64,000 bases of DNA from Acephala macrosclerotiorum (Eukaryota > Ascomycota > Leotiomycetes > Helotiales > Mollisiaceae). The DNA lies in the NCBI GenBank assembly GCA_014904845.1, contig MU119253.1:217419-281418 (forward strand), given 5' to 3'. The notes under the pieces were generated by a model that made no database searches, was not told the origin of the DNA, and saw only the letters and a list, made by a program, of their open reading frames with translations. Shown here piece after piece: positions 1,815 through 64,000 of this stretch (the stretch's first letter is position 1; every line of letters begins with the position of its first letter). The position numbers and the translations under genes were made by a program.

Positions 1815-4800
1815 ATGGATGAACAAGTCAATTCTTACGATAATCACCTTCTCGGCAGCGTCACCAACGATGGCGACCAAAAAATCCTCCTAAAAGCAAC
1901 GGAACTGCGAGGTAGCGGGCGTCTACACGATGCAGCTCTTCAGTACGATAGCCTTCAAGAGTCTCGCGATATACCAGGTGTTGTCATCTACGAAACACGT
2001 CTCCTGCTCATGAAAGGAGACTTCCGGAAGGCATCTTCACGACTTGACAACATAATTGGTCGCGACACAAATATTGCTTCGTCTCCTATTGAGGCTTTGA
2101 TACTACTGATGAAAGTGTACTGCAATGTGTTTTTGTATCTTGAACTTCAAGAAGCAATAGATGCAGCGCGTAAAGTGCGGCAGATCTGGTTGGAGCCGGA
2201 AGCGGCAGAGAGAGAGCTATTCACAGATACTTATGTGTGTGCCTCAAGTTCATGAAGGAAGTCTGACAGAATTGCCTCTGACCTTGACAGGTTCTGCTTG
2301 AGTATTACTACCAAGGTATCATCACAATGAAACAAATGCTTCAGGAGCGGCACGTTGTTGAGGCAGAGTCCGCAGCCGTTCTCAAGCAACGAAGAGAACG
2401 ACTTTACAAGAGTTTGATATTGCAGGGGAGGGTCTACGAGGCTTCGGAGGTCGCCATAATGGAGATGAAGTTTGGTAAACCAACCCTCGAGCAGCTGAAT
2501 ATCTTTGAGAATTATCTGGAGATGTTCGATAAAGGTAAAGTACAAAGGTGTAGAGAGTCTTACGAGCCTGACTTTTGATATCTAGATGCCTCAGCAGCCG
2601 TTGCAGACACTATGCCCCCTTATGCACTGGGCTTTTATGAATACTGTATGCCATTTTATGCAGCGCATATTCAGATATCGATCGGCAAGACCCTTTGCAG
2701 AATTGATCGTCCAACGGAAGGGGTGGAAAGTTTCAGAATTGCACTCGAATTGTTTGGTGGACTCGATTCGATCAACGGACAAGCACTCGCCAGGCTTCAG
2801 ATCGCTATTCTCGATAAGACAGCAATGACGGATCCAATGAAGACTTGCGAGGACCTCAGAAGAATAGCAGATGATCTAATAAGCTGCGAAGACTGGATCG
2901 GGACTAATTCGGCTCTATGTGAACTATCGGAAATGCTTCAGTGCGGTCCACCCTCTTTTCAACCCCAATTTCAAGCTTGCCAGAAAGAAATAAAGGAGGT
3001 TTATAAACAAACGGGGAACAGGTTCAACTTCTGGCACATGCAGTCACAGGTCTGGATGTTCGAATTCATGAAGCCAACTTCTTTTGGAAAGGGCATTGAG
3101 ATGTGTGAAGCTTTCTTCGAAGAAAACAGAAATACCTGCTCAATTCGGCTATACAAGGAAAATTTCGCAACTATGTTAGTAGTTGCGTATCAAGCAATCG
3201 GAGATGGCATTAAGGCGACAGAGTACGCCGAACTTTGTCTTTCTCTCACAAAGGAGGTTGGTGATAGAAAGCTTATCATAGCCAATGAAGTAACCGTTGC
3301 TGGGCTTCGGCGGGAGCAGCTGAGAACTTCTGCGCCAATCTCAGAAATTCAAGATCGCATATTGTCTCTAGCCGAGCTATTCCGTGAGAGTAGCGAGAGC
3401 GACAGTAGGCAGCGACTTGCTGAATTCCACACACTAGTTGCTATGGCTGTTTATCTGGCAGATCTTTGGGTTGTCCGATGGGACAGGTCCAGCGTCGAGG
3501 AACACAATCGGGAGAGCTACCTGAAAAATGCCATTCAATGGATCGAAGCCGGACTGGAGATTCTACCACACGTACACATCGATAACAAGAGCTCTTCCCG
3601 AGCATCGCTCGATTTTGTCCACGCCGGAATTTTGCAACGGATGGATCGAACGGCGGAGACTGTTAAGCTTTGCGAGAATATGCTTTCATCCCAAGGCGAT
3701 AACATGCCGAAACGAGATAGAGCTAACGTTCAACATTTGCTGGCAACTACCTTCATGACACAAAGTGCTCGAACTTCCTCTTCGGAAAACTTCAACAGTG
3801 CCAAAGTTGCGTATCTTGAAGCTATAAATGCGGCACGGGAGCTTGGAGATATGTTAATGGCAGCTAGATGCCTGAAAGCATTGGTGCAAATGTGTTCTTT
3901 CTGGCGCCAAAGTTCTGTCGCTATGACTTTTGTTCTGGCTGATGTTCTGGGCTGGATACAGGAATGGGAAGAGATATGGGAAGAGATACTGAGTGAGGCT
4001 TCTGCTTACCGTGGATTACAAGGATTGGAAGTGCGACAACGACTTCGAAAAAACAACTCTACTGATCTCTACAAAATTGCTATCGAGCTGTGCAAAAACG
4101 ACAACAATAATCTCCAAGCTTGGAAATGGACGCAAAAGGCGAAAGCAAGAGCTGTTGCCACTTCACTGGGATTGAGTCGCTTGATACCCTCCAACCTTTC
4201 ACAACATCTGTCACAAAATTCGCTCGCTCTGCTTGAACGAGAGCACGCCTTGTTGAATGACATAGAAAGTGCGGATGAAGGGTGGAGATTCCATTTGCGG
4301 ATGGAACATCTTGACCTGCGCAGGGAAATGAATTCGATTCCGGATTTGCGTTCGATCCAGGCAATTAGGCAAGGTGGATATCTTGATATCAGCGATTTAG
4401 ATTCCATGTTTGGGGGAAGAAAAAACGTCCTCTGCGTCGACTGGGTGGAGCTAGAAGATGGAGCTTACCACATGATTACAGTTCGACCTGGGGAACTTCC
4501 ACAATACTTTGCTACTGAGGTCGCTACTGCAGATGTTCAGGAGTGGCTGGAGTGTTACATATACGCTGAAGATAGTGTGGAAAAACTAGAAGACGCAATC
4601 CCCGAAGAACTGGAAGTGCTAGAGGGACTTGTTTCTCACCTTTCCAATATCGCGGCTGAAGGAGAACTTCTTGTTTTCGTTCCCACTGGGTTACTCTGCG
4701 CTATTCCTCTTCATGCCTTGAATTTGACACGAGGAGGAGACACTCGTCCGATCATCGAATGGAATCCAGTTGTATACAGCAATGCATTGGCCATATTCCG

Positions 4801-5555
4801 CCAAGTCCTTGCCCGCGCAACGAACATAGCGCCCTCCGAATCAAGCAAAGAATTCAAAGTCGCTGTGTTCGGAGATCCAACACCTGCTGACAAGGCCGAA
4901 AGCAGGATGGTGATTGAGATAGGAGAATATTTAAAAGCTGATGTTTTTGTTGGCGAAAATGCGACATCGCACGCTCTCATTGGGGCGATACAAAGACACA
5001 GCTTAATTCATTATCAGGGGCACGCCGAATTTCACTCCTCTGACATTCTCGAAGAAAGTGTACTGAAAATGTACGATAAAGATGTCACAGTCAAGAAACT
5101 CTTTGAAACTCCAGTCCTTCAATCACCTCACATATCACTTGTTGCCTGTCAGTCTGGGCAGCAGAAGTTAACGCTTGGAGATGAACCACTAGGTTTCTTG
5201 ACTGCGTTGACGATTGCTGGGGCTGGCTCCGTCTTGGGGACTCTCTGGGAACTGGACGATGTATACGCCAGTTCTACTTTCACAGAACACTTCTATAAGG
5301 ATCTGAGCAACAACATCCAGACAGGAAAGAAAGCCTTTGTATTCGATCTTGCTACGGCTTATCAGAAGGCAGTGCGTGCAATGCGAGAGAGAGATGAAAC
5401 AAAAGGGTTGTACTTTTGGGTAAGCTTTTTCCATGGATTTTCCTTTTCCTAATATGCAAGCTCTAGACTCTAACGGTATGTACATACAGGCGCCGTTTAT
5501 TCTCTATGGCTCACCGTGGCTTCTGTTCAACTCGGACCTTGGTTCAACTAAGTAG
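1815..5555 (+). CDS. TPR-CHAT protease (caspase-like)
   Basis: Four exons: 1815-2234, 2291-2534, 2586-5419 and 5490-5555, with 51-70 bp introns. Frames join cleanly to give about 1187 residues. The N-terminal two thirds are helical with TPR-like repeats and acidic/amphipathic helices. The last 300 residues form a CHAT domain. The catalytic histidine lies in HYQGHAEFH (near residue 1034) and the cysteine in LVACQSGQ (near residue 1076), followed by GDEPLGFLTALTIAGAGSVLGTLW and the typical end WAPFILYG, which is completed only by the short last exon. CHAT proteins are caspase/separase-clan cysteine proteases. In fungi and bacteria they often act in regulated cell death or cleave a dedicated partner. 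Both catalytic residues are present and the gene looks intact. The divergent neighbour is a candidate partner, which is my inference. Confidence 0.88.
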
Positions 5556-5712
5556 ATCTATTGGTAGAGTGTGAAATAGATTTTCTTTGCATCTCAAAAT
5601 GAATGCTTTTCGTCGGTAGGAATAACCAAAGAAAAGACAGCGACTGTGTGACCTACTTTGCAGAAAAGTGCATAGAAATGAAGTTCTGCCACTTTTTGCG
5701 CGTGAAAATAAG

Positions 5713-6895
5713 CTAATCCTTTTGTCCTATAACCATTATTAATGGAATGCTTGGGAATCCCCCTTTTTTATACCATTTTTCCAGAGTCATCACGGCATTT
5801 TGAACCATAGCATTGATTTCTTCTGCGCTCCTCGGCTTTCCATCTGCCGTCTTTGCATATTGAATCGGCAGTAAGGTCTTTGTGGATTCCGTCCACCCCA
5901 CTCTAGAAACCTCTCTCGTCCTCTACTTTGTCTCTTCATCCCTCAGAGAATAGAACTCGGGTCTAGAAACACTCGCCAACCCAGAATTTTCGAACAATGA
6001 ATAGAGGACGCTTAGGATGTCGTTTGCAAAGCTGAGTTATTTCGTGAATTCGATGAATTCGGTGTAGAGTTTTTTGCTTCCGGCTGGCATTTCCAGAATT
6101 CGACGCGGTTGAAATCCCACTCGTCCCATTGGATGTAGCCACCGGGAGCTCTGTTCCTGCCAATACTCTATGGGGATATTGAGGCAGCGCACATGACATA
6201 CACAAGAGTTTAAGCAAATTCTACACAGCCGTGGGAATCTCAACTTTCTTCAATGCAGCGATAAGAATATGGACACGGACGAGGTCATAGCAGCCGTGAA
6301 ACTCCTTAGGGAAAGGTTGCAGGATGTTGTGAGTAATGTACTTGACATCCGGCTTTGATTCCTTGTGGAAAAAACTAGGCTGCTCGTTTTCCCCCCAAAT
6401 GGGGCCCCACGACATGTTAAGATCCTTGCATCAATTAAAAATCCGCAAGTAATTTTACTAAAAAGCTCGGTTTTTAATTATTTAAGCCCGGGCCTTTTTT
6501 TTTTACCTCTTTACCGAAGCTCATATTATTCAAGCTTCCTCCCGCCGCACGTCCTCGTGGGGCCCCATGGGGGAAAAAACGAGCAGCCTAGGAAAAAACC
6601 ATCTGAAATTCGAAACCGTCGTATTTTTGAGGTTTTCTGTTGTGAGTTGGCATGCTTGACATCGCTTTTGCCGACTCGTCTATCCAGATTCTAGAGAGAA
6701 TTAATGCCAAGACGTTTGGGGCGCTGAGAGAGTATACCCTGTTCCTGTTGCCACATCTGCTATTCTGATGAGCTTATTCTTTGGAAGTGATGGATGAATG
6801 GTTTCGGGGAATTCGTAAAGCGATGCAGTATCAGTCGGTGATTGAAAGCCTTCGGTTTGACTACAAACCGCCATGTTTGGCGTTGCTGTGATCAA
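5713..6895 (-). pseudogene. Class I SAM methyltransferase (UMTA/LaeA-like), inactivated
   Basis: Fragments on the minus strand read as a fungal secondary-metabolism-type methyltransferase. The N-terminal piece (6895-6701) carries motif I as IADVATGTG. A middle piece (near 6415-6230) reads ILQPFPKEFHGCYDLVRVH, the usual motif region after the MITE. A C-terminal piece (5901-5713) ends in PSIPLIMVIGQKD. A 215-bp MITE sits between the first two. Bridging the MITE across its target duplication gives a good reading (ISDGFFHKESKPDV). However, stops near 6700 and a 1-bp frame slip near 6605, just upstream of the insertion, show other lesions as well. Further frame changes occur between 6220 and 5960. 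The gene is dead and was probably decaying apart from the insertion. Confidence 0.75.
6376..6590. mobile_element. MITE (215 bp) with about 35-bp TIRs and 9-bp target duplication
   Basis: Terminal inverted repeats start TAGGCTGCTCGTTTT and run on through a C-rich tract into GGGGCCCCAC, with a few mismatches. The flanks are perfect direct repeats GGAAAAAAC at 6367-6375 and 6591-6599. The interior has no coding capacity. A 9-bp duplication is typical of Mutator-like elements, so a MULE-derived MITE is my best guess. TIRs that begin with TA would also allow a TA-target reading, but the 9-bp match is stronger. Confidence 0.85.
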
Positions 6896-8450: not shown

Positions 8451-8830
8451 CCGTCTGCTTGCGAGCTACTATTGGCGGGCTAGGAAATCGGTGACAGCAA
8501 ATGAGTAGCCATTCACGGATAGGAACGGTCACAGCCATGTTTACAAAACGGGTTAGATAGCACAGCCACGTCCAAGTCTGCCTTCAAAAAAGCCTCACAT
8601 CTAAACCTCAATTGCAACAGTACTCCTTTTTTTTAAAAGCCGTTCATCACACGCGATATTCTTTTCCCAGAATTGAGATCATTATACAGATATACACGTT
8701 CGATATTACTCCACCTGACTTAATTAGACCTAGCTATTGATACTGGGCGTCGAGAAAGAAATCGAGGCTTGTGACGCCCAAGATTTAACCGTAGCCTCGC
8801 CTCTATTTGTTATGCTAGCAGAGGAGCAAT
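8451..8830. other. Upstream region of the HeLo-like gene
   Basis: Composition returns to normal. No RNA gene or clear TATA box is seen. It presumably contains the promoter of the gene starting at 8831. Confidence 0.4.
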
Positions 8831-11249
8831 ATGGATGGTCTGTCAAGCGCTGCTAGTGCTTTTGCTGTAGTGTCTTTGGCAGCTCAAGTTGCAAGCGGGA
8901 TCCAGAAGCTTTGCGACTTTTGGCAATCAGTTCGAGATGGGCCGAAAGATGTTCTTTGCATTGTGAGGGATCTGGAAGTAGTTTCAATCATTCTAGATGA
9001 GATGCGACAAGAGGCGCACGGCGAAAGGCCTCATTCGCGAGCTCTGGCAACAACAATAGAAGCACTCGAGAGCTGTAATGGTAGCGTGGCTGCTTTGAAC
9101 CACCTAATTGATGAGCTCCAGCCAGGATTCACTTCAAAGAAGCGGGCTCTCAAGAAGCGGGCAGCTTTGAAAGCTGCATGGAAAGGCGACATGATTCGGA
9201 AGTTTCGAGAAACCTTGAAAGACATGAAATTAACATTACTTTTGGCTAAACAAAACTCTATCGAGTATGCTCCCTACTATCTGAATTACATATCTAGCGA
9301 GTATTTCTGACATTTGCAGGCACTCAACTACCATTCGGGATAATGATCGTCAACTTGATCTGGAAGCTATTGCTCACGGGATGAGACTTCTATTGATGCA
9401 GAAGAGCCAAACAATGAACGCGATGGCTTCTACAAATTCTCTCAATTATAAAGAGCACATCCAAGCCCTGAGAGAGGAGTGTCAAATCATGTCAGCTCGC
9501 ATTGCAAACCCAGTTGGCCGATATGGTGCCCAAAGCTTAACAGATTCAGCACTGTCAGAGTTCTCAGCCGAATCAGCCACCGACAAGATTGAAGACTTGG
9601 TTCAAAACAAGCTTAGAGTCCCACTGCCGAAGAAAACTCCAGCAGTTAAGTATTCCCGCGTGAGAGCCAGAGGCAATTTCGCAATCACTGGCCTATTTGG
9701 TACACTGCATATGACATCCTCGGTCATTACCAATGTCACTACTAGTTCAACAAGTGTAGCAGAGGAAGGAAGTGATGATGAAGGTCGAAGTCAGCTTCAG
9801 ACCATTATCACTATTCACCCATCTCGATGGCTCTCGACAATTGGTTTGATGTTAGGTATTCAAATCATCATGTCACAATCGCTTAGAGGACTTGATTGCA
9901 GAGCGAGAACATATCGCGCAGTCCCTGATGATTCGCGAGTTTTCAGCCTTTGTCGGAGTGGTGATATTGATATGATCCAGCAGCTTTTCGACCGCGGGCA
10001 AGCTTCGCCATGGGATACTGATTCGAGAGGCCTGACTCCTTTGTTTGTAAGTCCTAGTATGTTGTATTAGTCTGTTAAAATATTGTCCCGGTCATCCTTT
10101 TTTTTAGCTAACGTGTTCATGTTAGTTTGCAGCACGCGCAAGACAGTTGGATGTATGTAAACTTTTGATCAATCAAGGGGCTGACGTCGATGCACGCACT
10201 CTTACTAATGAGTAAGTTACATTGGTTGAACTGGCTGATAGACTCGACTCCCTGACATATTTCAAAGCTCTGTGGCCTCGTATGCTTGTCTGAAAGAGTG
10301 TCAACTCAGCGAAAAGAAATCTTGTGAAGAGCACATTGAGGTCCTGAGACTCTTCCTCGACAACTTAGATTTCTCAGATGACATCAATTGCACAGGTCTC
10401 TGGGGATTGCGACGTCTTCTGATCACTGCTAAATGCAACCATGGATCGTGTTCTCATGCACGCGACCACCCCACAGCATTCCTATGGGCCTTTTCACTTC
10501 TCAAAAGTGATATCTCGCTTGCGATACCTGCCATGGCCCGTGGAATTGCTCAACTTATTAATCAGGCCGTCAAGCTGGACGATGTTGGCCTCCTTTCACT
10601 GTTGATCAGAGTTGCTGGAAATATTAATTCGAGAGAGCTACTTAAATGGTTCTCTCCGGCACACAATCTCGTCATGAGTAAGCCACAACATGAAATACGT
10701 CAATCTGACCGATTTTTGATATCCCATGGCTTGGATCTTCATGTTGTCATGGATGAGGAGTTTAAGGAGAGCGCGCAGTACCATTATAGCTCAGGCGAGA
10801 GTCCTCTATCATGCGCTATGAGGCACTCATTTTCATTCTCTCTCTTTCGAAGCCTTCTTCGAGATATGGATATCTATATTGAGCACTTTATAGACCAAGA
10901 GTTGAAAGAGCATTGTTTACAAGAGGCTAGTTGGACACGAACAACTCTTCTGCGACTTTTTGCTCTCGACTATCCACCTCTCGAGATGCCGATGATAGTA
11001 TGTCGAACTTGCGGATGGGATGATGTCGCCGCAGAATCAACATGGCTTTCCGTGCTCGAAAAGCTAAAGTCTACACCTGAAACCATCTACAATGCCGAAG
11101 AAATTGTCTTAGCGAGGAAAATGGAAATTAGCAAGAGTGAAGATATCGTTGGAACGACTTGCCACTTGTGTAAAGCGGCAGAGTCGAGGACTACCTTCGA
11201 GAATTCTGATGAAGAGGATTCAATGTTTCTATTTCCTCTAACCTTGTAG
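8831..11249 (+). CDS. HeLo-like N-terminal domain protein with ankyrin repeat
   Basis: Four exons: 8831-9264, 9320-10046, 10126-10211 and 10268-11249, giving about 742 residues with clean frame joins. Residues 1-150 read DGLSSAASAFAVVSLAAQVA...LCDFW, the pattern of the fungal N-terminal (HeLo-like) domain found on STAND and ankyrin death-related proteins. It opens with a hydrophobic helix that can act on membranes in related families. A central basic and Ser/Thr-rich linker follows. Then one clear ankyrin unit spans the second intron (TPLF/FAARARQLDVCKLLINQGADVDAR). The C-terminal half (from about residue 420) is helical, with paired cysteines in CRTCGW and CHLCKAAE, and is not recognised. 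The nucleotide-binding domain usual in STAND proteins is absent. A role in self/non-self or injury signalling is inferred from the domain only. Confidence 0.75.
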
Positions 11250-14170: not shown

Positions 14171-14713
14171 CCTAGGCATTATGCAGCTACATATGCTCTG
14201 CTCCAATAACGCGAAGCCCAATGATAACGCCTTGGGAGTTTACAACTTCGCGTAAAATCTTACGAATAAAAAAGTCCTGTATAAAATTGAAAATTAATTA
14301 TATTTTTATTCTTATTGCCTTTACTTGAGCTGAGGGCGAGCAAGCCTTGACGGAGCCTGAGCACGCCTTTGAGTCAGCTTGCCCTGCGCACCATCGTGCG
14401 GGTCCTATTTTGGCGCCCTGTACGCCCTGTGCGCCCCAGCTACAGTTTCCTAGCTGAGTTCGCCAGGGCACCCAATCTGCTGCCCTCCAGAAGCGCCCCT
14501 CCCTGCCAGCGCGAAGCGCTGCGTAAATCGTTCCACATCGCCAATACCTGCCATAATAGGCCTAAAACCCGCTGGGAGATAAGACATAGGCAGGGATGCA
14601 GCGTGAAATCAACTTCAACTTATATAACTCTCTGGCCCGCACGTCGGAGGCTGTTAACTTCTCACTTGCTCTCCTCTTATTCTTTTACACACACTCGTCT
14701 CTACTGTGAACCC
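14171..14713 (+). promoter_or_regulatory. Upstream region of the MazG/helicase cassette
   Basis: GC-richer than the flanking DNA from about 14330. The last 100 bp look like a fungal core promoter: a TATATAA at 14620, a long pyrimidine-rich run (14659-14700), then GAACCC before ATGG. The frame is open from 14369, but the family match begins only at 14714. Confidence 0.55.
14620..14627 (+). promoter_or_regulatory. TATA box (TTATATAA)
   Basis: 94 bp before the ATG at 14714 and followed by a CT-rich tract, as in many filamentous-fungal promoters. Confidence 0.5.
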
Positions 14714-15034
14714 ATGGTTAGCAAGGCAGTCCACGACACCCTCGCGGCATTTGTCGCTGAACGCGATTGGGCAAAGTTCCACACTCCGGAGAACCTCGCC
14801 AAGAGCGTTGCGATCGAAGCCGGCGAACTCCTCGAGTGCTTTCAGTGGGGTGCAGAAGCCGACCCGAAGCGCGTACGCGAAGAACTTGCAGACGTACTGA
14901 CCTACTGTCTGCTTCTCGCAGATCGCATCGGAGCCGATCCTGAGCAGATCGTGCTGGAGAAGCTCGAAATCACGCGCAAGAAGTATCCCGTTGACAAGGC
15001 CCGAGGAAGCAGCAAAAAGTACGATGAGCTCTAA
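14714..15034 (+). CDS. MazG-like nucleotide pyrophosphohydrolase, bacterial-type
   Basis: A 106-residue intronless protein. The first helix pair carries ELLE (residues 38-41, with E35 before it) and the second ELAD (57-60), the ExxE...ExxD metal-binding motif of all-alpha NTP pyrophosphatases. The end KKYPVDKARGSSKKY is the usual tail of the short bacterial MazG-like family. Such enzymes hydrolyse (d)NTPs to monophosphates and pyrophosphate. The start at 14714 has a good fungal context (CCCATGG) and matches the family length; the longer open frame from 14369 is rejected. Its stop codon overlaps the start of the next gene by 11 nt, an arrangement normal in bacterial operons and abnormal in fungi. 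Composition is GC-richer than its neighbours. Horizontal origin is inferred. Confidence 0.85.
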   Translation: MVSKAVHDTLAAFVAERDWAKFHTPENLAKSVAIEAGELLECFQWGAEADPKRVREELADVLTYCLLLADRIGADPEQIVLEKLEITRKKYPVDKARGSSKKYDEL

Positions 15035-16790
15035 AATGGTGCAGCTAGAATTCTCCAAAGCTGCCGTTACAACGTGGAAGTTCCACGACGAGAAACATGG
15101 CAACTGGCCTGTCGTATATGTATTGGATGACGGCCGTGATACTACTCAGGCCAATCCGAACCAACTGAGGGACATCTACGTTGGAGAATCGCTCAACGCC
15201 GCAGGCCGACTGCGTCAGCACCTCGAAACACCTGAAAAACAGCACCTCAAGAATATTCGCGTCATCATCGATGAAAAGTTTAACAAATCGGTCTGCCTGG
15301 ACTTGGAGTCCTACCTCATCAAAATGTTGGCCGGCGACGGTACCAATCGGGTGCTCAACCGAAACAACGGGATCACCGAGTGCAAATACTACCAACGGGA
15401 GGTGTATCGCGAGGGCTTCCGTAATATCTTCGAACGACTCAAGGCCGATGGTGTCTTCACGCGAAGTATCCCGGAAATCGAAAACAGCGACCTCTTCAAG
15501 TTGTCACCGTTCAAAGCGCTGACGGAAGATCAAGCAACTTCGGTAGAGGAAATCGTCCAGGGGTTCCTCATTGACGTCGAGAGAGGCGTCAAAAGCATGA
15601 TCGTGATCCAGGGCGATCCAGGCACTGGCAAGACGGTCGTGGCCATATATATGATCAAATTGCTCGTCGACATTAAGACATTCACTTCACTTGAGGATCT
15701 AGATAGTGACTCGCGATTCTCTAACTTCTTCACCAAAACCAATCAGAGGCTACTCCAGGGTCTCCGCGTCGGCCTGGTCGTGCCGCAGCAATCGTTGCGA
15801 GAGTCTATCAAGAAGGTCTTTCGGAAGACGCCTGGGCTTAACCCGTCAATGGTCATGACACCCTTCAACGTGGGACAAGCAGATGGAACTTTCGATCTGC
15901 TCTTGGTTGACGAGACTCATCGGCTCAATCAACGTGCTAACCAACCATCGGGAGTACTCAACGCCAAGTTCGCAACCATCACAAGAGAGCTCTTTGGCAG
16001 CGATGATATCAGCAAGACTCAACTTGATTGGATACGGGCGAAGAGCCAACATCAGATCTTCCTTTTAGACGAAGCGCAGAGTGTTCGACCAGCAGACCTG
16101 CCCCCGGAGCTGCTGTCGGCCCTCGTTGCTGACACTCGTGCGTCAGGGCGGCATTTCCAGCTTCGGACTCAGATGCGCGTACAAGCGGGATCCGACTTCG
16201 TGTCTTACGTTCGCTGTATTCTCGATCCTCGACCTCTCTCGGCTCCATGCGTGAGACGAGATTTTGGGGAATATGATTTCCGCTCGTTCGACAACGTTGC
16301 ACACATGCGAGACGAAATTTTCCGCCGCAATGCCGAAGTGGGCCTTTCACGCATCGTCGCTGGCTACGCATGGGAGTGGAAGACCAAAAGGGACAAAAAC
16401 GCGTTCGATATCGAAATCGACCAGACGCGGCTCTGCTGGAACAGCACCCCGACCGACTGGATTGCTTCTAGCAATGCGCTGGCGGAAGTGGGATCTATTC
16501 ATACTGTTCAGGGATACGACCTAAACTACGTTGGCGTCATCATTGGTCTTGATCTGCGATTTGACCCTGAGCGAAGGCGTCTTTTCATTAATCGCGACTC
16601 GTACTTTGACAAGAAGGGCAAGGAGAACAACCCGGCTCTCGGCAGGACCTACTCGAACGATGACCTGCTGCGATTCATCACGCAGATCTATGCCGTGCTC
16701 ATGACGCGCGGGATGCGGGGAACGTACGTTTATGCGTGCGATCCCGGTTTGAGGGAGTATCTCAAAGCTTTCATCCCATCTCCTTCTTGA
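15024..16790 (+). CDS. GIY-YIG nuclease / Schlafen-group-3 (DUF2075) helicase, bacterial-type
   Basis: Intronless, 588 residues from ATG 15024; ATG 15036 is the alternative. Residues 28-115 are a GIY-YIG nuclease: VVYVL, DIYVGES, R64, H66 and the catalytic Glu in DLESYL (E95). Residues about 165-585 are a P-loop DNA/RNA helicase of the DUF2075/Schlafen-g3 type (PF09848). It has Walker A GDPGTGKT (197-204), DETH (296-299), FLLDEAQ (346-352), QLRTQMR (379-385), HTVQGYD (493-499) and LMTRGMRG (559-566). Every key motif is intact. In bacteria such proteins occur beside MazG-like genes and in mobile or defence loci. The reading frame overlaps MazG by 11 nt, and an AGGAAG sits about 15 nt upstream, as a Shine-Dalgarno relic would. 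How a fungus translates this second frame is unclear. Confidence 0.88.
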   Translation: MSSKMVQLEFSKAAVTTWKFHDEKHGNWPVVYVLDDGRDTTQANPNQLRDIYVGESLNAAGRLRQHLETPEKQHLKNIRVIIDEKFNKSVCLDLESYLIKMLAGDGTNRVLNRNNGITECKYYQREVYREGFRNIFERLKADGVFTRSIPEIENSDLFKLSPFKALTEDQATSVEEIVQGFLIDVERGVKSMIVIQGDPGTGKTVVAIYMIKLLVDIKTFTSLEDLDSDSRFSNFFTKTNQRLLQGLRVGLVVPQQSLRESIKKVFRKTPGLNPSMVMTPFNVGQADGTFDLLLVDETHRLNQRANQPSGVLNAKFATITRELFGSDDISKTQLDWIRAKSQHQIFLLDEAQSVRPADLPPELLSALVADTRASGRHFQLRTQMRVQAGSDFVSYVRCILDPRPLSAPCVRRDFGEYDFRSFDNVAHMRDEIFRRNAEVGLSRIVAGYAWEWKTKRDKNAFDIEIDQTRLCWNSTPTDWIASSNALAEVGSIHTVQGYDLNYVGVIIGLDLRFDPERRRLFINRDSYFDKKGKENNPALGRTYSNDDLLRFITQIYAVLMTRGMRGTYVYACDPGLREYLKAFIPSPS

Positions 16791-17348
16791 AGTCATGTAA
16801 ACTCTGCGGTAAACTTAAGACTGAAACATTAACTCGAATTTTTTTTTTTTGGGAAAGTTTTAAATAAAATTGAAATAAAATAAATCCACTTTTTGTATCG
16901 AGAAGTAGTAGACCAGCGAATAGAAAGGAATATTGCGATAAAAACATTCGAGGCCGCGGTAAAAGAGTATTTGAAATAATAATCGTTTTGATCTTGTAAA
17001 GAATAGTAAGGGGGTCGATTGCTTGCTGCTTCATCAAAAAGGGGAAAGGGACGCGGGGTTACTATCTCTTTGACGTTGGAATATATCTCCGTGGTAGTCT
17101 TCGCGTGCTGTGCGATTTGTGATTTACTAGCCGGGAGCATGTCGACATGATCGGCGAGACTCCAGATATTTATTATTCGAGGAGTCGAACCCAGGCTTTG
17201 AATTCACCTTGTACATATCTTGTGACCGGCAAATATAGCTCATGATCTACATCTCTTCATACTTATAGGAGGCGAGAGTATTCGGGCACAAGGTCCGGCC
17301 AGACATGTCTCAAGCCATCTTTACTTATGACCGGATGCAACGCAGCGC
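16791..17348. other. Intergenic, A/T-skewed, no gene
   Basis: A poly-T run near 16840 and short spurious ORFs. Nothing else supported. Confidence 0.45.
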
Positions 17349-18200
17349 CTAGCGACTGGAGCCATCCTTCCAGAAGCTGGTCGGTGAAACGAAGTGTGCT
17401 TTTGGAGTTGATATTCCCATAGAGAGGAGGCCATGCTCAGGACTGGCTCCGGCACTTGCTGCTGGGTCACGTAATATTTTGAATAAGCTTCTGACATCTT
17501 CGACGCTTCTCATTCCCAATCTTTTTATCGTCCTGTAAGATGCAAAGCGAATCAATCCGGAGATACGGGATACTGAGTGCTCTTATAATCTGCATAGCAT
17601 CTTGAAATGTTTTTGGAGCATCATCGAAAGAGATTCGTTTCATCCGATCGGCAAGGGTTGTGGAGGTCGTTTGGAGCGAAATTCTCTGAGCCCCAGCAAT
17701 AACTTAAAGCGACGTATCTGCCTGACGCTCCGTTATTGACCAGGAGCTTGAAATCGTGATCATCGTTGGATGTGCTGAGATCAAGAACTCGTGTGGGAAG
17801 TAAAGGGCAATCCTGTGGTACAGAGCGTATGGCTGGAGCAATCAAACATCCAGCGGGCTATAATGTCCACCGTGTACACAATGTTAAGTGTTTGCAAAAT
17901 CGTTGGGGGCACAACGAAATCTGATTCTCGATTAGCTCGTTATTTGTGGTGGGTATCAAATGGTCGCACCTTCTTGGTGGTCGAAAATTTCCAGGTTGTA
18001 TTCCAGATGTTTCCTGCCTGAGAACAACTGTACCGAAAGGCAACCTTCTCGAGGACGAGCAAGAGTAATTTCGTCAGTTGTTGTAAACATGTAGAGTTGC
18101 TGCGAACTGGCATTCATGAAATCGTTGAAAGCTGATATGCCGTGGTGAATGAGTGTGCAGACGGGACAACCCTCGAGGAACGACTTCACAAGCTCGGAAT
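17349..18200 (-). pseudogene. HET-domain gene relic
   Basis: Minus-strand fragments follow the order of a heterokaryon-incompatibility protein. First comes FLEGCPVCTLI (near 18185), then a W-C-H-C motif (ARWMFDCSSHTLC, near 17850). PLLPTRVLDL and YVALSYCWG follow (17810-17700), and last TFQDAMQIIRAL and IDSLCILQDD (17620-17530). These lie in three different frames. A slip separates the W-C-H-C motif from PLLPTRVLDL, and another occurs just after SYCWGSENFA. No full-length reading is possible. HET proteins trigger incompatibility cell death; this copy cannot work. Confidence 0.75.
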
Positions 18201-34928: not shown

Positions 34929-35675
34929 TACGGCACACCATGTGGTCGAGGTGTGCAACTTTCGAAAAATCGAAAAACCGAAAAATAATTAAAATATCGT
35001 TTTTTTTTAAATTAAATTATAATAATAATTTTTATTTTTTTTATTTAATATATATTTTATTTTATATTAAATTATATTTGTATTTTTAATTATATATTAA
35101 TAAATAATAAAAAGTTTAATTTAATTAAAAAATATTATTATAAATTATATAATTCGTAATATATAATTAAATTAATATTTAAAATATTAATATATAAAAA
35201 AAAAACTTTTTATAATATAAAATTTTATATTAAATTTTTTTTAAATTTTTATAATTAATTTAATTAATTATAAATAATTATTAAATAATAAAAATAATTT
35301 ATAATTTTAATTTAAATAATTTAAAAATTATATATTTTTTTTAATTATTAATAAAATAAAATAAAAATAATTATAAAGTTTAAAAAAAAATTTATAATTT
35401 TTTATTATTATTATTATTTTATTTAATTATTATTATAATTTTTTAATTTTTCGATTTTTTAAAAATTATATATTTTAATTATATAATATATTATAAATTG
35501 TAATTACTTTTAATAAAAAATAAAGCTTTAAAATTTTTAAATAAAAAGAATTAAAAGAAAAAAAAAATGATTATTATTATAATTTAATGCAAAAACGATG
35601 TTTTGATTATTTTTCGAAAACATCGATTTTTCGATTTTTCGAAAGTTGCACACCTCGACCACATGGTGTGCCGTA
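34929..35675. mobile_element. AT-rich TIR transposon (about 750 bp) with about 110-bp inverted repeats
   Basis: The outer 49 nt of both ends (TACGGCACACCATGTGGTCG...) are perfect inverted repeats. After a 9-nt gap they continue for about 60 nt with mostly C/T differences. Direct repeats CACGC flank both sides (34924-34928 and 35676-35680); alternatively TA dinucleotides are duplicated. The interior is nearly all A/T and non-coding, so it is a RIP-degraded or MITE-like derivative. The ends themselves hold CACACC...GGTGTG inner palindromes. Confidence 0.85.
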
Positions 35676-35727
35676 CACGCTGCGGGTGGATGACGAGAAC
35701 GCGAATTCCCGAAAGAGGCCAATGACA

Positions 35728-36407
35728 TCATTTTTCGCTTGTGACTAACCACCCCCCTATTCGCTGACTCATCCCTCTGTGAATAAATAGCAGGGAATTT
35801 AATTTAGACTTCTGAGCCATGTTTGCGAGAACGCTCCGATAAACGATTGGGATGCGAGCTGACAATGGAAATATGTCGAGGCTTAGATCAAGACAAGCTT
35901 TCGGCAGAGCGGAGGCCATCGCCCACTTAAACGGATATGCCAATAAGGAGCGAACCCCCCTTTTAACTCGCTTGTAAGATTTCCATTGACCGTAAGGCTC
36001 TCCAAAACGGGAATAGTCTACGAGCATTGTCCTTTTGATTTCCATGCGAGATCGCCTCTCAATGTTCCAAGCATCATGAGAATCTGACAACCACCGCATT
36101 TCAAGCTCAAAGTCAGCCACGCTTAATTAGGATAGTGAGCATATGATATGTCCTGAGGAGATTGCAAAATACGATACAACACGATGGAACGGAGACCAGC
36201 TTCTGGTCCAAAAGACTCAATATCCATTCTTCTGACCTCACAAAATATTTTTTGATGAGTGCTCAGGAAAGGAGCGTGTCTCGCTTGTGATATTAAAGCA
36301 GATCTTGACACTGTGAAGGAAAGTTCGAGATGGCTAGATACTAGGCGGACATTCGAATTCAAAACTTTGACCATGATCGGATTATACAAAATTGGGTCTT
36401 CGTACAC
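35728..36407 (-). pseudogene. Unrecognised two-part ORF remnant
   Basis: Two minus-strand frames (36407-36123, 95 codons, then 36120-35728, 130 codons) lie end to end but in different frames. The second has no ATG at its start. Composition is protein-like (helical, mixed charge), with no known motif. It may be a decayed gene truncated by the neighbouring transposon, or chance. Confidence 0.25.
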
Positions 36408-45960: not shown

Positions 45961-46040
45961 AGTCCCAGTGAGATATGAGACATTCTTTGCTGGAGGATTA
46001 GAGGGATAAGTCGTAGTATAAGGCCTACCAGGGGGTGCAG

Positions 46041-47467
46041 CATTTCGTGACACACAAAAATTAAGCGAAAAACCTCATAAATACACTATATATTCTTTAA
46101 ATTACTACAAATCACTTTTAAGAGGCTTTTTACCAAATTTTGCGATTTGTTTACACTTTTTTAATATCTCAACTATTTTAGTTCGTATTTTTTTCATTGT
46201 AATTTTACTTTATTCGTTTTATAGAACTTTTTTAAATTGATTTAACGTATTTTATTATTTTTTGCGCATTTATTTTTTTTAAAATATATTAATACTTTTT
46301 AATCGAATTTAAATTTGAGAATTATAGAAAATAAATATAAAAGCGTATTTTAATTTCGTTTTGAATAGTTTAAACGAATAATGTAATTTTCTCAATAAAA
46401 AGTTTGTACTCGTAATTTTAATCGTTGTTTTTTTATAAAATTTAAAATAAATCGTAGTACTTAGAGACGAAATTGATAATTGCTATATAAACAAACAATA
46501 AGCGCTTTATGTAGTACTTTTAAATCATAGAATTGCTTTTGATTTTGATTTCTACGAAATGTAATATATCGATATTTTATTGTTTTAAACGATTATTAAA
46601 TTTCTTTTTAAACTCGGATTTCTTTTTTTTAAATTTTTTAAATTTCTTGGATTACTTCGTATGATTTTTTTCGTTGTAATAGAATTTTAATTTTTCGCAT
46701 TTAATGTATTAATTGATTTATTTCGCAATATGCAATTAATTGTTTTATTTTTTTGATTTTTTTTAAATATTATTTGAATTTATACGCGTTTTTTTTTTTT
46801 TCAAAATTTTTTTAGTTTTTATTAATAATAAATCAATATATGTTTCGTTTGTAAAAAAATATAAATACTAATAATTTTTTATAAATTTTTTTTTATATTC
46901 GTTATTAAAAATTTTTTTTTTAATTTTATTTGTAGACGAGATTTTTTTTTTAACGTATATTATTTTGTAGTACTAAGCGTTTTTTGTATACTTTTTGAGT
47001 TGTATTTATAAAATTTTTTTTTTAATAAAAATATTGTATTTTTCGATTTAATATTCGAATAATTAATCGCGTAGTAAATTTCGTTTACTAATTAGAAATC
47101 AATACGTCGCTTTCGTGATTTGAGACTTTCGTTTAAATATTTTTGACTTTTTGCGATTTCGACGATACGCGTTTAACTCAATATTACGTCGTTCTCGTAA
47201 TTATTTATAGTTTATTTCGCGAGATATTTCAATTTATTTGTAAATACAAATAAACGACTTTATGCGATTATCGCGATCGAAATCTCTAAAGAAATTTGAT
47301 TTCTTTAAAATAGTATATTTTTTAATTTTGATTTCGTAATTAAAAATATTTAAACGAAGTCGTAAACGTAATTATAGTACTATAATTAATAATTTAAAAA
47401 GTTGTTTACGTATATTAATGAGATTATTGATAATGCGCACGGACTATTTTTGGTGTGTCACGAAATG
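46041..47467. mobile_element. AT-rich TIR element (1.4 kb), RIP-degraded
   Basis: Terminal inverted repeats CATTTCGTGACACAC(C)AAAAAT at 46041-46061 and 47446-47467 differ by one inserted C. The interior is A/T-rich with no ORF. Remaining cytosines are mostly in CG, hardly ever in CA, the signature of RIP. I see no target duplication. It may descend from a DNA transposon, but no transposase can be read. Confidence 0.75.
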
Positions 47468-47505
47468 TTACAACTTTTAGTAGTTTTATTTTTTACTTTG
47501 AACTA

Positions 47506-48234
47506 TTTTTTGCTTTGAATTACTTTTTATATTGAAAACATCGATTTTAAATTTTTATTATTTTTACAAATAATTAATAAAAATAAAAAGTATTTAATAA
47601 ATAATATATTTTAAACTTAAAATATTATCGTAAAATTTCGCTTTTTTTATTTAAAACTTTTTAAATTTTTTAATTAAATCTCGAAACTCTAAAAATAATT
47701 TTTATATAATTTATATATATTTTTTAAATTTTTAATTTTTTTTAAATAACTTTTGTAAATATTATAATATTATAATAAAAATTTATATTTGTATTTTTTA
47801 TATTAATATACTATTCGCCGTTTAATATTTAAAAGTTTTTATTAATAATGATTTTTTTAATTAATAATAATAAAAACTTTTATATAAAAAAATTATATAA
47901 AATTTATTTAAAATTTAATAAAAATTAAACTAATTAATAACTTTTTATAAACTTTTTTAAATCGAATTTTTATTTAATAAATTAAATTCTTTTAATAGCG
48001 AATATTATAAAAAGGTATTAAAGTTTAAAAAAGTAGAAAATTAATATATATATATTTTTTAAGTTTAATTAAAAAATATTACGTAATTTAAATTTAAAAA
48101 AAATTCGTAAATTTTTTAGTTTTTATATAAAAAATTTAATTTTTTAATTTTAAGTATTTTTAATAATTATTCGTAGAAATAATAAAGGTCCAAAATCGGT
48201 GTTTTTAGTGTAAAAGGTGGCCCAAAGCAGGTGG
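47506..48234. mobile_element. AT-rich TIR element (about 730 bp) whose arms differ only by RIP-type changes
   Basis: The left arm (47506-47548, reverse-complemented) and the right arm (48192-48234) align over about 43 nt. Almost every difference is a G/A or C/T transition, with the right arm keeping the G. The interior is almost pure A/T. It abuts the previous element. Confidence 0.65.
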
Positions 48235-59192: not shown

Positions 59193-60415
59193 TCATTTAC
59201 GCTTCTTGTGGAACCCCGGGAGCCAACTCGCCTGAGCACCATGCCAGGCAAGATTGCGATCTCGATCTCGATTCCCTTCCTGCCTTCTGTGATGGCCATG
59301 TTCTGCCTCAGCCATATTCCTTCTCTCAACACGTTTCAACTGGGCTTGGGTCTCAGCAACTTGTGCTTGCAACAATCTTTCTTCCTCTTCGTCCTCCTCT
59401 TGTTCCCGTCGTCTCTTCTCCTCTCTTCTTCGCAGCTCGGCAGTCAACACACGGCCCGCTGTTGTGTTCTCAAGTTCAACTCCGCGTTGTAATTCAAGTA
59501 CAATTCCCAACGCAGGAGCCTGATGCTTCTTGCAAAGCACATCCACTATGTCAATGCCTGAGCCCCGCTCTCCATTGTATCGCATCATGGTCGCTCCTTT
59601 ATCAATCAGATCGCCCCAGAATTCGGCGGACCTAAGCTCAGCCTCTCGAGATTCGTACTCTATTAGTGGTCGACTTGTAGGAATAGTATCCCACATGCTA
59701 GTCACAAGCAGAACGTTTTGAAAGTAATGCTCTCCGCAAAGGGCTCGCAGCATGTCCAGATTCATTCGAGAAGCACCCGTCAATTTCTTGTCGGTAATGC
59801 GGTGCATGTAGATGATGCCAACAAGAGGAGGGTGGCGTCGATCTTGTAGACAGGAGACAATGGATGCGAGTATTTCCATGTCAGGTCGGGTGGTGTCGTC
59901 GAATCCTGGAGAGTCAATGAGGGTAATGGCTTCGTTGCCGTGGGTGAGTTGCCAGCCCTGGCATACGGCTGTACCTATAGAGATTATAAGCATGAGCAAC
60001 AGCTCATTATCGTATCATATATCTTACATGATTTGAGACTATGGCCTATCTTCACTGGCGATCCCGTGGCGCGCTTGATGAGAGATGACTTCCCAGCTCC
60101 TGTTTCACCCAAGACCAGAATTGAGATCTCCCTTCGAGTTTGAATGCCTTCGATTTGCTTCAATGCCACATTGCTTGTTGGATGTTTGCCAGCTTCCATT
60201 GGAACTGCTGCATATGATCCTGAAGTATCAGCCGTGATGAGTTGCGTCGACTGCCTTGCTTCCAAGTCATCTCTTGACGGTTGTGCGGCGTCCGAGTGAG
60301 AAGACATCCCTGCCTCATCACGATAGTAAGGCTGCACGTCCACGGTCCTGACTCCTGAGCGATCTGTTGTTATCGTAGAGATATAGTGCTTCGTAGTAGT
60401 ATTGTTATTTGCCAT
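59193..60415 (-). CDS. AIG1/GIMAP-like P-loop GTPase with coiled-coil tail
   Basis: Exons 60415-60028 and 59974-59193 (53-bp intron) give 389 residues. An N-terminal disordered part of about 95 residues is followed by the G domain: G1 VLGETGAGKSSLIKRATG (with KIGHSLKSC after it), G3 LIDSPGFDDTT and a G4-like VTSMWD. The standard NKxD/TKxD is replaced by TSMWD, as in its neighbour and in similar fungal proteins. The C-terminal 80 residues form a charged coiled coil (RRREEKRRREQEEDEEEERLL). No membrane helix. AIG1-type GTPases in animals and plants act in immunity and on membranes; the fungal role is open. It is divergent to a paralogue at 61128. Confidence 0.82.
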
Positions 60416-61127: not shown

Positions 61128-62165
61128 ATGGGCTCAAGCTCGAGCAATGACCTTTTGATCGCAGTCCTTGGCGTCACGGGAGCTGGAAAGACGACATTCA
61201 TTTCGAAGGCAACGGGACGCAGTGACATGAAGATCGGGCATGGCCTCACATCCTGTAAGTCAACATTTTTGTCATAGCGAAGCTTGTCGCCTGCTGATTT
61301 TCCATTGCAGGTACCCAGGAGATCTCGCTCTCTCGTCTCAAGTTCGGCGGCAAAAACGTGGCTTTGATCGACACCCCAGGATTCGACGATACATACAAAA
61401 GCGATGCCGAGATCTTAGAACTGATCGCAAAGTTTCTCGCAGAGACATACTCCCAGGATATGCTGCTCTCAGGGATTATCCTCTTGCAACCCATCAGCGG
61501 AAACAGAGTCCAAGGCAACGAGCGCAAGCGAACTCGCCTCTTTGAGAAGGTCTGCGGTCCTGGCGCCTTCTCCAAGGTCGTCATTGCGACGACCATGTGG
61601 GATGATCTCAAGAATCAATCTCAGGGGAACCAGCGTGTCGAAGAGCGGCGCACCTCGAACGACTTTTGGGGAAAGATGGTCGAACATGGAGCGCAAATTG
61701 CGCGCCATGACAACAATCCCACCTCAGCACGAAAGATCATTGGCATGCTGTTGAAAAATGTCAAGCCGGTAGTTCTGCAGATGCAGACAGAACTCGCTCA
61801 GAATGATGGGAGGGTGGCGGCCACTTCCGCTGGCCGCCAGCTTGACAGTGATCTGGATGAGACGAGTCGGAAACTTTTGGTCGAGCTTCAGGATCTGAAG
61901 AAAGAGTCTGCGAGGAATACTGCTGCGCTTCGAGCTGAGATGCAAGAACTGCAGCAGAAACTGGAGGACGCACAGAACGAGAGAGACAGGCTAAGAGAAT
62001 CAAAGGTATGTGTATCTCTGTCTCTATTCTATATCTCCCTCTTCATTCATACACTGAGTCTCCCTCAAGGTGTCACTTGACGGCACGCCGAATTGGCCTT
62101 CAGCTCTCGCAGGACTAGCATCTGTTGGCATCGCGCTTCTTCCTTTCGGGTGTATCGTCATGTAA
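61128..62165 (+). CDS. Tail-anchored AIG1/GIMAP-like GTPase
   Basis: Exons 61128-61254, 61311-62005 and 62070-62165 (introns 56 and 64 bp) give 305 residues. G1 is VLGVTGAGKTTFISKATG, then KIGHGLTSC|TQE, G3 LIDTPGFDDTYKS and the G4-like TTMWD. A long helix/coiled coil (about residues 200-275) follows. The last exon adds PSALAGLASVGIALLPFGCIVM, a C-terminal membrane anchor, so the protein should sit on a cytoplasmic membrane face. If the second intron were retained the anchor would be lost, which offers a simple switch in location, but this is speculation. The first splice site falls at the same place in the paralogue (SC|T), showing common descent. Confidence 0.85.
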
Positions 62166-62600: not shown

Positions 62601-64000
62601 AATTCGCCATTTGTCGAAATTAAAAAAAGGGGCTGAAATTGATAAATCGATAGCTATTTTTAAATTAAATTTTTATATTAAAAATAAATAAACAATTTAA
62701 TACATATATTAATATATTTAAATATTATAATATTATTAATATTAATAAAATTTAAATTAAAAAAACTTTTTATATAATTTTTTTTTAAAATTTAAAAATT
62801 ATTTATTTAAAAATTTTTTTTTTTTTTTTAAAATTTTTAAAATTTTTATTAAATTATTATAATTAAAATAATTTGTATTATATAAATAATACGTAATTTA
62901 ATAAAAATTAATATTAATTTTTAAAATAAACAATTTATAATAATTTTAAATAATATTAATTAATAATTTTTTTTAAAATAAAATCGTTTTAAAATTAAAA
63001 TTAAAAAATTTTAAAATTAATTTATTATAAAATTTAAATTTAATAAAATAATTAACGTATAATATATTTTATATATATAATCGAATAAAATAAAATAAAT
63101 TATTTATTATTATTAAATTAAATTTTATTAATATTATTAAAAATACGTTTATATTTAAAACGTTAAAATAATAAAATATTAAAATATATTTTATTTTAAT
63201 TTTATAATTATATAATTTTTAAAAAAAAGTTTAAAAAGATTTTTTTTTAAAATTATATATTAAATAAAATAATTTAAATTAATTAAATTAATCGTAATAA
63301 TTTAATAAAAAATTTAAAAAATTTAAAAAAAAAATTTTTATTAATATTTTTTTAATATAAAATTTTATTAAAAATTAATTTTTATTTTAAATATTATTTT
63401 ATAATTATATAATTTTAAAATTTAAATTAATTAAATTAATTATAATAATTAAATATAAAAACGAAAATTTTTAAAAAATTTTTTTAATAATATAAAATTT
63501 ATTAATTTTTATTATTTAATAAATTTTAAATTTTTATAAAATATTTAAATTAAATATTTTCAATTTAAAATTTAAAATAAAAATAAATTATTAAAATTAA
63601 AAATTTTATAATTTTTTATAAAAACGTTTTTTTAAAACTTATAAAATAATTTTTTTTATATATTTAATTTATAAATTTAATATTATATAATAATTAATAA
63701 ATTGAAAATAGTTTTTAATTAATAAATAAATATAATTTATAATATATAATAAATTAATAAATTAATAAATTCGTTAAATATTAAAATTATTATTAATATA
63801 TATATAATTAAAATATTTTTTTACGTTTTATAATCGTTTATAATATTTAAATTAAATAATTATTATTATAATATTTTTAATTTTTTAATTTTTTAATATT
63901 TTATAAAATAATTATATAATATATTTTTTATTTATAATTATTAATAATTTATATATAATATTTTTATTATTTTTATTAATATAAAAATATTTATATTAAA
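62601..64000. repeat. Long AT-rich block (RIP-degraded DNA), continues past the window
   Basis: About 1.4 kb almost free of G and C, with only isolated ACG/TCG. Homopolymer and TTAAAT-type runs throughout. No ORF, no readable terminal repeat. Confidence 0.75.

Follow-up and report, generated by a model that had tools for sequence, protein, structure and literature searches.

We analysed a 64,000-nucleotide (nt) stretch of contig MU119253.1 of the fungus Acephala macrosclerotiorum (the window; all coordinates are positions within it), which carries two overlapping open reading frames (ORFs), one for a MazG-like nucleotide pyrophosphatase (ORF1) and one for a protein with a GIY-YIG nuclease-like region and a Schlafen-group-3 helicase (ORF2). 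Both genes were almost certainly transferred from bacteria into fungi. In the explanation that we regard as the best overall, and as reasonably probable, a MazG-like gene and a helicase gene of GIY-YIG/Schlafen type, joined by overlap in an operon of soil actinobacteria (Microbacteriaceae type), would have entered fungi once and together and would have been kept with the overlap in place, to be expressed from one bicistronic mRNA by leaky scanning, with a likely defence-type role.

The gene pair and its bacterial relatives

ORF1 (14714–15034, + strand; ATG at 14714, TAA at 15032–15034) encodes a protein of 106 amino acids related to the all-alpha nucleoside triphosphate pyrophosphatases of the DCTPP1/RS21-C6 (dCTPase) type. 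ORF2 (15024–16790, + strand; ATG at 15024, TGA at 16788–16790) encodes 588 amino acids, with the GIY-YIG nuclease-like region at residues ~28–116 and a superfamily 1 (SF1) helicase at residues 190–573. ORF2 is read in the +1 frame relative to ORF1, and the two overlap by 11 nt (ATGAGCTCTAA, 15024–15034, + strand). A preliminary description of the window had reported two intact, intronless genes on the same strand with this overlap, and the ORF coordinates, the ATG at 15024 and the TAA at 15032 were confirmed. Each ORF gave a single match (E ≤ 0.001) in the 69.7 Mb, 778-contig genome and is present in one copy.

Profile searches matched ORF1 to PF12643 (76.6 bits, over the cut-off), to PF03819 (24.4 bits) and to DCTPP1/RS21-C6 structures (2a3q and 6sqw, E 2.4e-23), and ORF2 to PF09848 (213.6 bits, over the cut-off); the GIY-YIG profile PF01541 scored 18.3 bits in ORF2, below its cut-off of 22.6. 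The catalytic residues are complete, as had been claimed: the MazG EXXE-EXXD residues of ORF1 (E38, E41, E57 and D60), the GIY-YIG residues of ORF2 (Y32, Y52, G54, R62, H66 and E95) and its helicase motifs GDPGTGKT and DETH are all present, and nearly every one of the 121 rows in each protein's alignment retains them, with the GIY-YIG residues conserved in 80–81 of 81 rows. The PF09848 match and the SF1 helicase fold of the predicted structure place ORF2 among the SLFN-g3 helicases. It does not belong to the Schlafen family proper, and no Schlafen core RNase domain (AlbA_2-type) was found among its 17 profile matches at E ≤ 1. The AlphaFold2 model used was built from 81 alignment rows, a model from 24 fungal rows being poor (predicted local distance difference test score 65); its list of structure matches (VIA-align) scarcely reaches residues 1–102 and bears on the helicase rather than on the GIY-YIG part. 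A sequence search of the PDB with ORF2 gave nothing significant (best E 0.27).

Protein searches were evaluated on the best 120 of 4228, 7999 and 4549 matches, and the distribution described here is a minimum. Among the best 120 of the 4228 matches, all relatives with an organism name were fungi, namely Cenococcum, Fusarium, Bisporella, Cadophora, Ilyonectria, Neonectria, Stachybotrys, Westerdykella, Clohesyomyces, Alternaria, Monosporascus, Trypethelium, Bathelium and Mycena, and a Mycena query brought further Mycena and Roridomyces sequences among the matches listed; for six taxa the lineage was confirmed separately. Among the genomes of 84,980 prokaryote species, a scan yielded 170 relatives, the best 80 of which form our bacterial comparison set. 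By title all 80 are Actinomycetota, and the closest are mostly cold-adapted Microbacteriaceae with 65–69% identity. Over the matched parts, identity between the bacterial and window proteins was 54–69% for the helicase and 52–80% for MazG.

In an IQ-TREE phylogeny of the helicase with 63 chosen rows (30 bacterial and 33 fungal-side, from Ascomycota and Mycenaceae), the fungal-side rows formed one clade (100/100) within Microbacteriaceae, with Mycenaceae as a subclade (100/99) and the window sequence grouped with Cenococcum (97/90). A FastTree analysis of 201 rows, from which L027 and L031 were omitted for an early stop in the helicase frame, left Mycenaceae unresolved beside the ascomycetes, and for this reason the single entry is argued from the 63-row tree. 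In the MazG tree (111 rows, few columns and rough bootstraps, omitting L027, L039 and L083) 32 fungal-side rows were one clade (100/93) adjoining Subtercola (90/84). Both genes thus nest in Microbacteriaceae, as their proposed bacterial origin requires, and both trees point to this same donor group. Monosporascus, one of the Sordariomycetes, was placed inside Pleosporales-type sequences. The trees would fit a joint transfer of both genes, once, followed by inheritance and some transfer from fungus to fungus, and the Mycenaceae copies may represent a second step from ascomycetes.

The preliminary description had also considered the arrival recent, and had set against a bacterial origin the prospect of a broad, vertically inherited fungal clade with introns in its members. 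Recent transfer was rejected: because the fungal clade spans several ascomycete classes and Mycenaceae, and because GC content at third codon positions (GC3) is near-native, the transfer is not regarded as a late one. GC3 was 0.66 in ORF1 and 0.62 in ORF2. Six native loci of the TCP-1 family range from 0.51 to 0.61, and the bacterial homologues average 0.78 and 0.81; the composition of the pair is close to native and its codon composition almost ameliorated. A broad fungal clade does exist, then, and real introns in the relatives are disfavoured by uninterrupted, full-length ORF2 frames: in many of the relatives among the best 120 of 4228 matches, ORF2 is a single frame of 585–611 residues.

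Beyond cellular genomes, two scans of viral contigs gave no relative, and 38 plasmid records had a match, ten of them covering at least 80% of ORF2 with a best identity of 31.4%. The locus L083 (MT836409.1, 6661–8689) lies on a contig deposited as an unverified bacteriophage; it holds a MazG–helicase pair with a 20-nt overlap and pairs with Nocardioides in FastTree. In Micropruina, loci L049 and L050 lie on two contigs of a single genome and have identical helicase copies, for which a duplication or an assembly end repeat is possible.

The overlap junction in bacteria and fungi

MazG lies directly upstream of the helicase in 78 of the 80 bacterial loci (a count that includes L039, whose MazG is a partial match), the others being L027, where the two genes are apart, and L048, which has no MazG. 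The ORFs overlap in 76 of the 80: by 14 nt in 60, by 4 nt in 13, by 20 nt in two and by 11 nt in one; besides L027 and L048, two loci were unclassed. Because the same order and overlap recur in these 76 loci, the pairing is not due to chance, and with the same donor group for both genes this bears out the proposal of an operon-like overlap and a joint transfer. The 11-nt overlap of the window, whose usual bacterial counterpart is the 14-nt one, is the ancestral bacterial junction with the start shifted one codon later. In L027 (Herbiconiux), MazG (2994–3311) and helicase (4383–6155) are separated by ~1 kb and the matched stretch has a stop at codon 17, and the helicase of L031 (6001–7764) has a stop at codon 187; both are, to judge from these stops, decaying bacterial copies.

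For the fungal relatives proteins were used, and MazG and helicase were paired by the equal size of their contigs, which gave 19 pairs. We asked whether one DNA could encode both protein ends. Codon compatibility with an overlap of 11 or 14 nt was found in 13 of the 19 pairs, and in 1 of 2000 draws of random cut points, where the control was allowed one methionine and the pairs any methionine in the first 25 residues. Another four pairs fit 26 or 29 nt, because their MazG extends five residues further. Moreover, the Mycena capillaripes model P0244, which has an upstream extension, can encode the MazG end ARG...KYD in the alternative frame immediately ahead of the ORF2 methionine (control 0/5000). 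Apart from P0244, this test was positive in one of ten A2 rows (P0041), and the nine negatives comprise six fused models, two unrelated N-termini and one displaced methionine (P0064). At the protein level these results show the junction to be conserved, and the bacterial operon junction appears to have persisted in several classes of ascomycetes and in one basidiomycete.

Expression of the pair

A TATATAA element (14621–14627, + strand), 93 nt 5' of the ORF1 start and the sole TATA-like element in 14401–14720, is followed by a pyrimidine-rich leader, and no ATG occurs between 14597 and 14713. Downstream, AATAAA hexamers resembling poly(A) signals are found at 16863, 16874 and 16879 (16863–16884, + strand), the first of them 73 nt 3' of the ORF2 stop, and neither they nor TATATAA occur within ORF1 or ORF2. 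From 14717 to 15023, between the ORF1 start and the ORF2 ATG, no frame contains an ATG; by comparison, 3 of the 80 bacterial MazG stretches and 2 of 47 further coding windows of equal size lack one. At -3 the ORF1 ATG carries C (CCCATGG), both ORF2 ATGs have A at -3, and the second of these, in frame at 15036–15038 (+ strand, AAAATGG) and a single base 3' of the ORF1 stop, also has G at +4; the ORF1 context counts as weak and that of the second ORF2 ATG as strong. Together, the TATA box, the AATAAA cluster, the ATG-free ORF1, its weak start and the strong second ORF2 ATG suggest a bicistronic mRNA translated by leaky scanning.

That one bicistronic mRNA carries ORF1 and ORF2 is, on this evidence, quite likely. 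The pair would have been left unsplit, with a promoter before ORF1 and a poly(A) region after ORF2 yielding the single message. A part of the scanning ribosomes would initiate at the weak ORF1 ATG and produce the pyrophosphatase, and the others would bypass it, encounter none in the next 310 nt and initiate at 15024 or 15036 to produce the nuclease–helicase. Leaky scanning as the main route to ORF2 is the reading that we favour, if tentatively and with somewhat less than even confidence, ahead of separate transcripts and then of reinitiation; because MazG rows from Fusarium hold internal methionines, we do not rate it higher. A stronger version, in which the bacterial junction was inherited as a native, obligatorily bicistronic gene across Pezizomycotina and Mycenaceae and serves fungal nucleic-acid immunity, is possible but doubtful; it would need no promoter or spacer between the genes, because the overlap and an ATG-poor ORF1 suit leaky scanning.

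Several observations weigh against a retained junction read by leaky scanning. Synonymous shuffling gave a probability of zero ATGs of 0.14 with ORF1's own codons, 0.045 with ORF2 codon usage and 0.03 with uniform usage; given these values and a single locus, the absence of ATGs is suggestive and not proof. Of the five Fusarium MazG proteins annotated separately, four (P0161, P0186, P0226 and P0227, but not P0212) have an internal methionine, at residue 72, 74 or 81, which shows that freedom of ORF1 from ATGs is not universal; no such methionine occurs in the three Fusarium models that include both parts (P0081, P0106 and P0119). RNA structure around the junction is not unusual (z 0.06), and laboratory yeast normally cannot translate a second cistron, according to the excerpted text of PMC11952965. 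As to the junction itself, the overlap in relatives was deduced from protein pairs, the window being the sole fungal DNA examined; two of the 19 pairs allow no more than a trivial overlap of 4 nt, because their helicase was called from a later methionine; the junction is altered in the Cadophora-type group (the N-terminus of P0061, and P0064); and in Fusarium ambrosium MazG (P0161) and helicase (P0060) are on different contigs, so that some lineages may have separated the pair. P0161 and P0060, like the internal-methionine proteins P0186, P0226 and P0227, are possible cases of such a natural separation. An in-frame MazG methionine is absent in 110 of 121 A3 rows and present in 30 of 80 bacterial rows; the A3 count is biased because A3 was ranked by likeness to a methionine-free query, and it was not used as support.

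The strongest competitor, which we hold to be unlikely though worth serious attention, is that two monocistronic transcripts are made, ORF2 being transcribed from a cryptic promoter inside ORF1 and the overlap being a harmless relic. Agaricomycete genes in polycistronic transcripts are also transcribed independently, as the excerpted part of PMC4503453 describes, and internal methionines in Fusarium MazG would be no obstacle. ORF1, however, contains no TATA element and no AATAAA or ATTAAA hexamer, and a relic overlap might erode by indels or start shifts, yet the start is kept in 17 of 19 pairs (those with 11/14 or 26/29 nt) and in the Mycena model; coding constraint on both proteins could by itself preserve it.

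Slightly less likely again is that coupled termination and reinitiation at the overlap, instead of leaky scanning, makes ORF2. Stop–start reinitiation is known from victoriviruses. Such a route would be insensitive to ATGs within ORF1 and would agree with the conserved overlap, and the ATG at 15036, one base past the TAA (TAAAATGG), forms the UAAAAUG junction, one of those at which stop–start reinitiation by 80S ribosomes has been shown in specially activated yeast (PMC11952965). The same excerpt, however, has reinitiation in yeast require unusual termination conditions, the junction lacks a structural element, and four of the 19 pairs have their ORF1 stop 15 nt farther downstream, which lengthens the way back. 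RNA structure guiding reinitiation was rejected on the z value given above. Termination–reinitiation across the overlap may nevertheless contribute besides leaky scanning.

A spliced or frameshifted MazG–GIY-YIG–helicase fusion as the real product is improbable. Eight of 11 inspected fungal database models do join both parts, and from 14901 up to its ATG the ORF2 frame contains no stop. The joined models, however, skip between 16 and 229 nt of the window layout as measured by BLAST ends, each a different length, or roughly 25–244 nt once query residues that overlap or fail to align are taken into account, and one of these (25 nt) is too short for an intron; as they come from different species, differing real introns are possible. 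Nine GT-AG candidates of 45–120 nt in the window could fuse the frames, none of them with a CTRAY branch site, and both starts are conserved. The joined models look like the work of predictors forcing one gene. Finally, bacterial families in a draft assembly could indicate a chimera or contamination, an explanation that retains hardly any probability against fungal-type genes on both flanks, one contig of at least 281 kb, the clade with Cenococcum, TATA and poly(A)-like elements and near-native GC3.

Possible function, surroundings and known systems

Bacterial neighbourhoods were scanned for 47 and for 20 of the 80 loci. The 94 nearest neighbours of the 47 loci included matches (E ≤ 1e-8) to type IV restriction (3), mad3 (4), Mokosh (3), PbeA (3), Vsr (3) and type I restriction (3). 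In the 20 genomes, at 1e-15, 80 neighbours matched 74 PADLOC families, as against 35 for 80 ORFs ~100 kb away, counts that are inflated by redundant models: PD-T4-6 accounts for 20 of the 25 control families shown, each with one member, and the neighbour-side families shown are mostly methyltransferase models matched by two members. Two control ORFs also match MkoA. Defence genes are modestly enriched near the bacterial copies, and this lends modest support to the role in nucleotide depletion or defence that the preliminary description had inferred. The pair is not a listed system of PADLOC-DB 2.0.0, in which ORF1 had no match and ORF2 partial matches only, the best at 2.4e-7 (AbiO, 50 residues), with PDC-S14 and PDC-S41 among the weak ones. 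In bacteria the pyrophosphatase would remove a nucleotide (dCTP, deoxycytidine triphosphate, or a modified dCTP) and the GIY-YIG/SF1 protein would process foreign or damaged nucleic acid, in what is probably anti-phage defence; an ancestral defence role is, on balance, favoured. In fungi, nucleic-acid defence or quality control is the probable reason for its retention, although a specifically antiviral or anti-element role seems rather unlikely.

The eroded flanks of the preliminary description were borne out in part: remnants are present, but they stand beside fungal genes with long open frames or two exons (CHAT, alpha-galactosidase, HD), and erosion by repeat-induced point mutation was rejected, as no signature of it occurs between 9 and 20 kb of the window. 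Upstream of the pair are a CHAT-domain open frame of 957 codons (2579–5449, + strand, 95 bits) and an N-terminal piece of a NOD-like receptor (NLR) of PigL_N/SesA type (8819–9307, + strand). Adjoining the pair on the right (17349–18189, - strand) are frames of decayed look with the stretches RYVALSYCWG and CPVCTLIHHG; two pieces scanned from this region had no Pfam match, and we take the frames to resemble a decayed HET gene. The CHAT, NLR-N-terminal-like and HET-like neighbours make this an accessory-type fungal region, which supports an immune role weakly. Extreme AT islands lie at 62801–64000 (2.7% GC), 46001–48000 (16–20% GC) and 35001–36000 (20.6% GC), the first two containing no N, and weak AIG1/dynamin-type GTPase matches (59196–60014, - strand, and 61298–62077, + strand) stand beside the 2.7% GC island. 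The genome bears traces of Starships, with at least 40 matches to the DUF3435 captain (PF11917), many with stops (loci L084–L091 on contigs C227, C87, C409, C48, C450 and C115). Starship cargo was rejected as an origin of the pair, since none of these 40 matches, a lower bound, is on the window's contig (C52).

Two proteins from one message, as suggested for these fungi, are rare among eukaryotic genes. How transferred operons are expressed in eukaryotes is an open question, which the overlap, seemingly conserved in many moulds and mushrooms over a long divergence, makes directly testable, and here the transfer endowed fungi with a nuclease–helicase and a nucleotide hydrolase whose origin probably lies in defence. 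Because gene predictors join the ORFs at differing places, databases are likely to misannotate the pair or to leave it hidden. In the open-licence literature we found no publication on a MazG/Schlafen-type helicase pair, nor an overlap retained over such wide fungal divergence.

In kind this is a horizontal operon transfer, in a variant with the overlap retained rather than split. The closest cases are the enterobactin operon (Kominek 2019) and the thiamine salvage operon (Goncalves 2019) of Wickerhamiella/Starmerella yeasts, as cited in the excerpted text of PMC13376923, where fungi likewise gained adjacent bacterial genes jointly and retained them in a cluster. There the operon is described as converted into a eukaryotic gene cluster, whereas here the overlapping ORFs are unseparated, the donor is Microbacteriaceae-like, the recipients are Pezizomycotina and Mycenaceae, and the genes are a nuclease–helicase and a nucleotide hydrolase, not metabolic ones. 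For translation the model is provided by the bicistronic nuclear genes of green algae, which, in the part of PMC11892635 consulted, use leaky scanning with AUG depletion before ORF2 and a weak first start, and have first-ORF medians of 357 and 291 nt and median spacers of 183 and 40 nt. The present pair resembles them in its short first ORF (321 nt) and, more tentatively, in the few ATGs before ORF2 and the weak first start context, but its ORFs overlap, it derives from a bacterial operon, and leaky scanning is a proposal for it. The actinobacterial MazG/GIY-YIG-DUF2075 (PF09848) pair has the same genes, order and overlap; the host domain differs, and hence the translation mechanism. Compared with human SLFN11 and SLFN14 (Schlafen group III), a GIY-YIG-like region replaces the Schlafen core RNase. 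ORF1 resembles the dCTP pyrophosphatase DCTPP1/RS21-C6 in its profile match and EXXE-EXXD residues, but is shorter and of bacterial type, and its activity on dCTP is putative.

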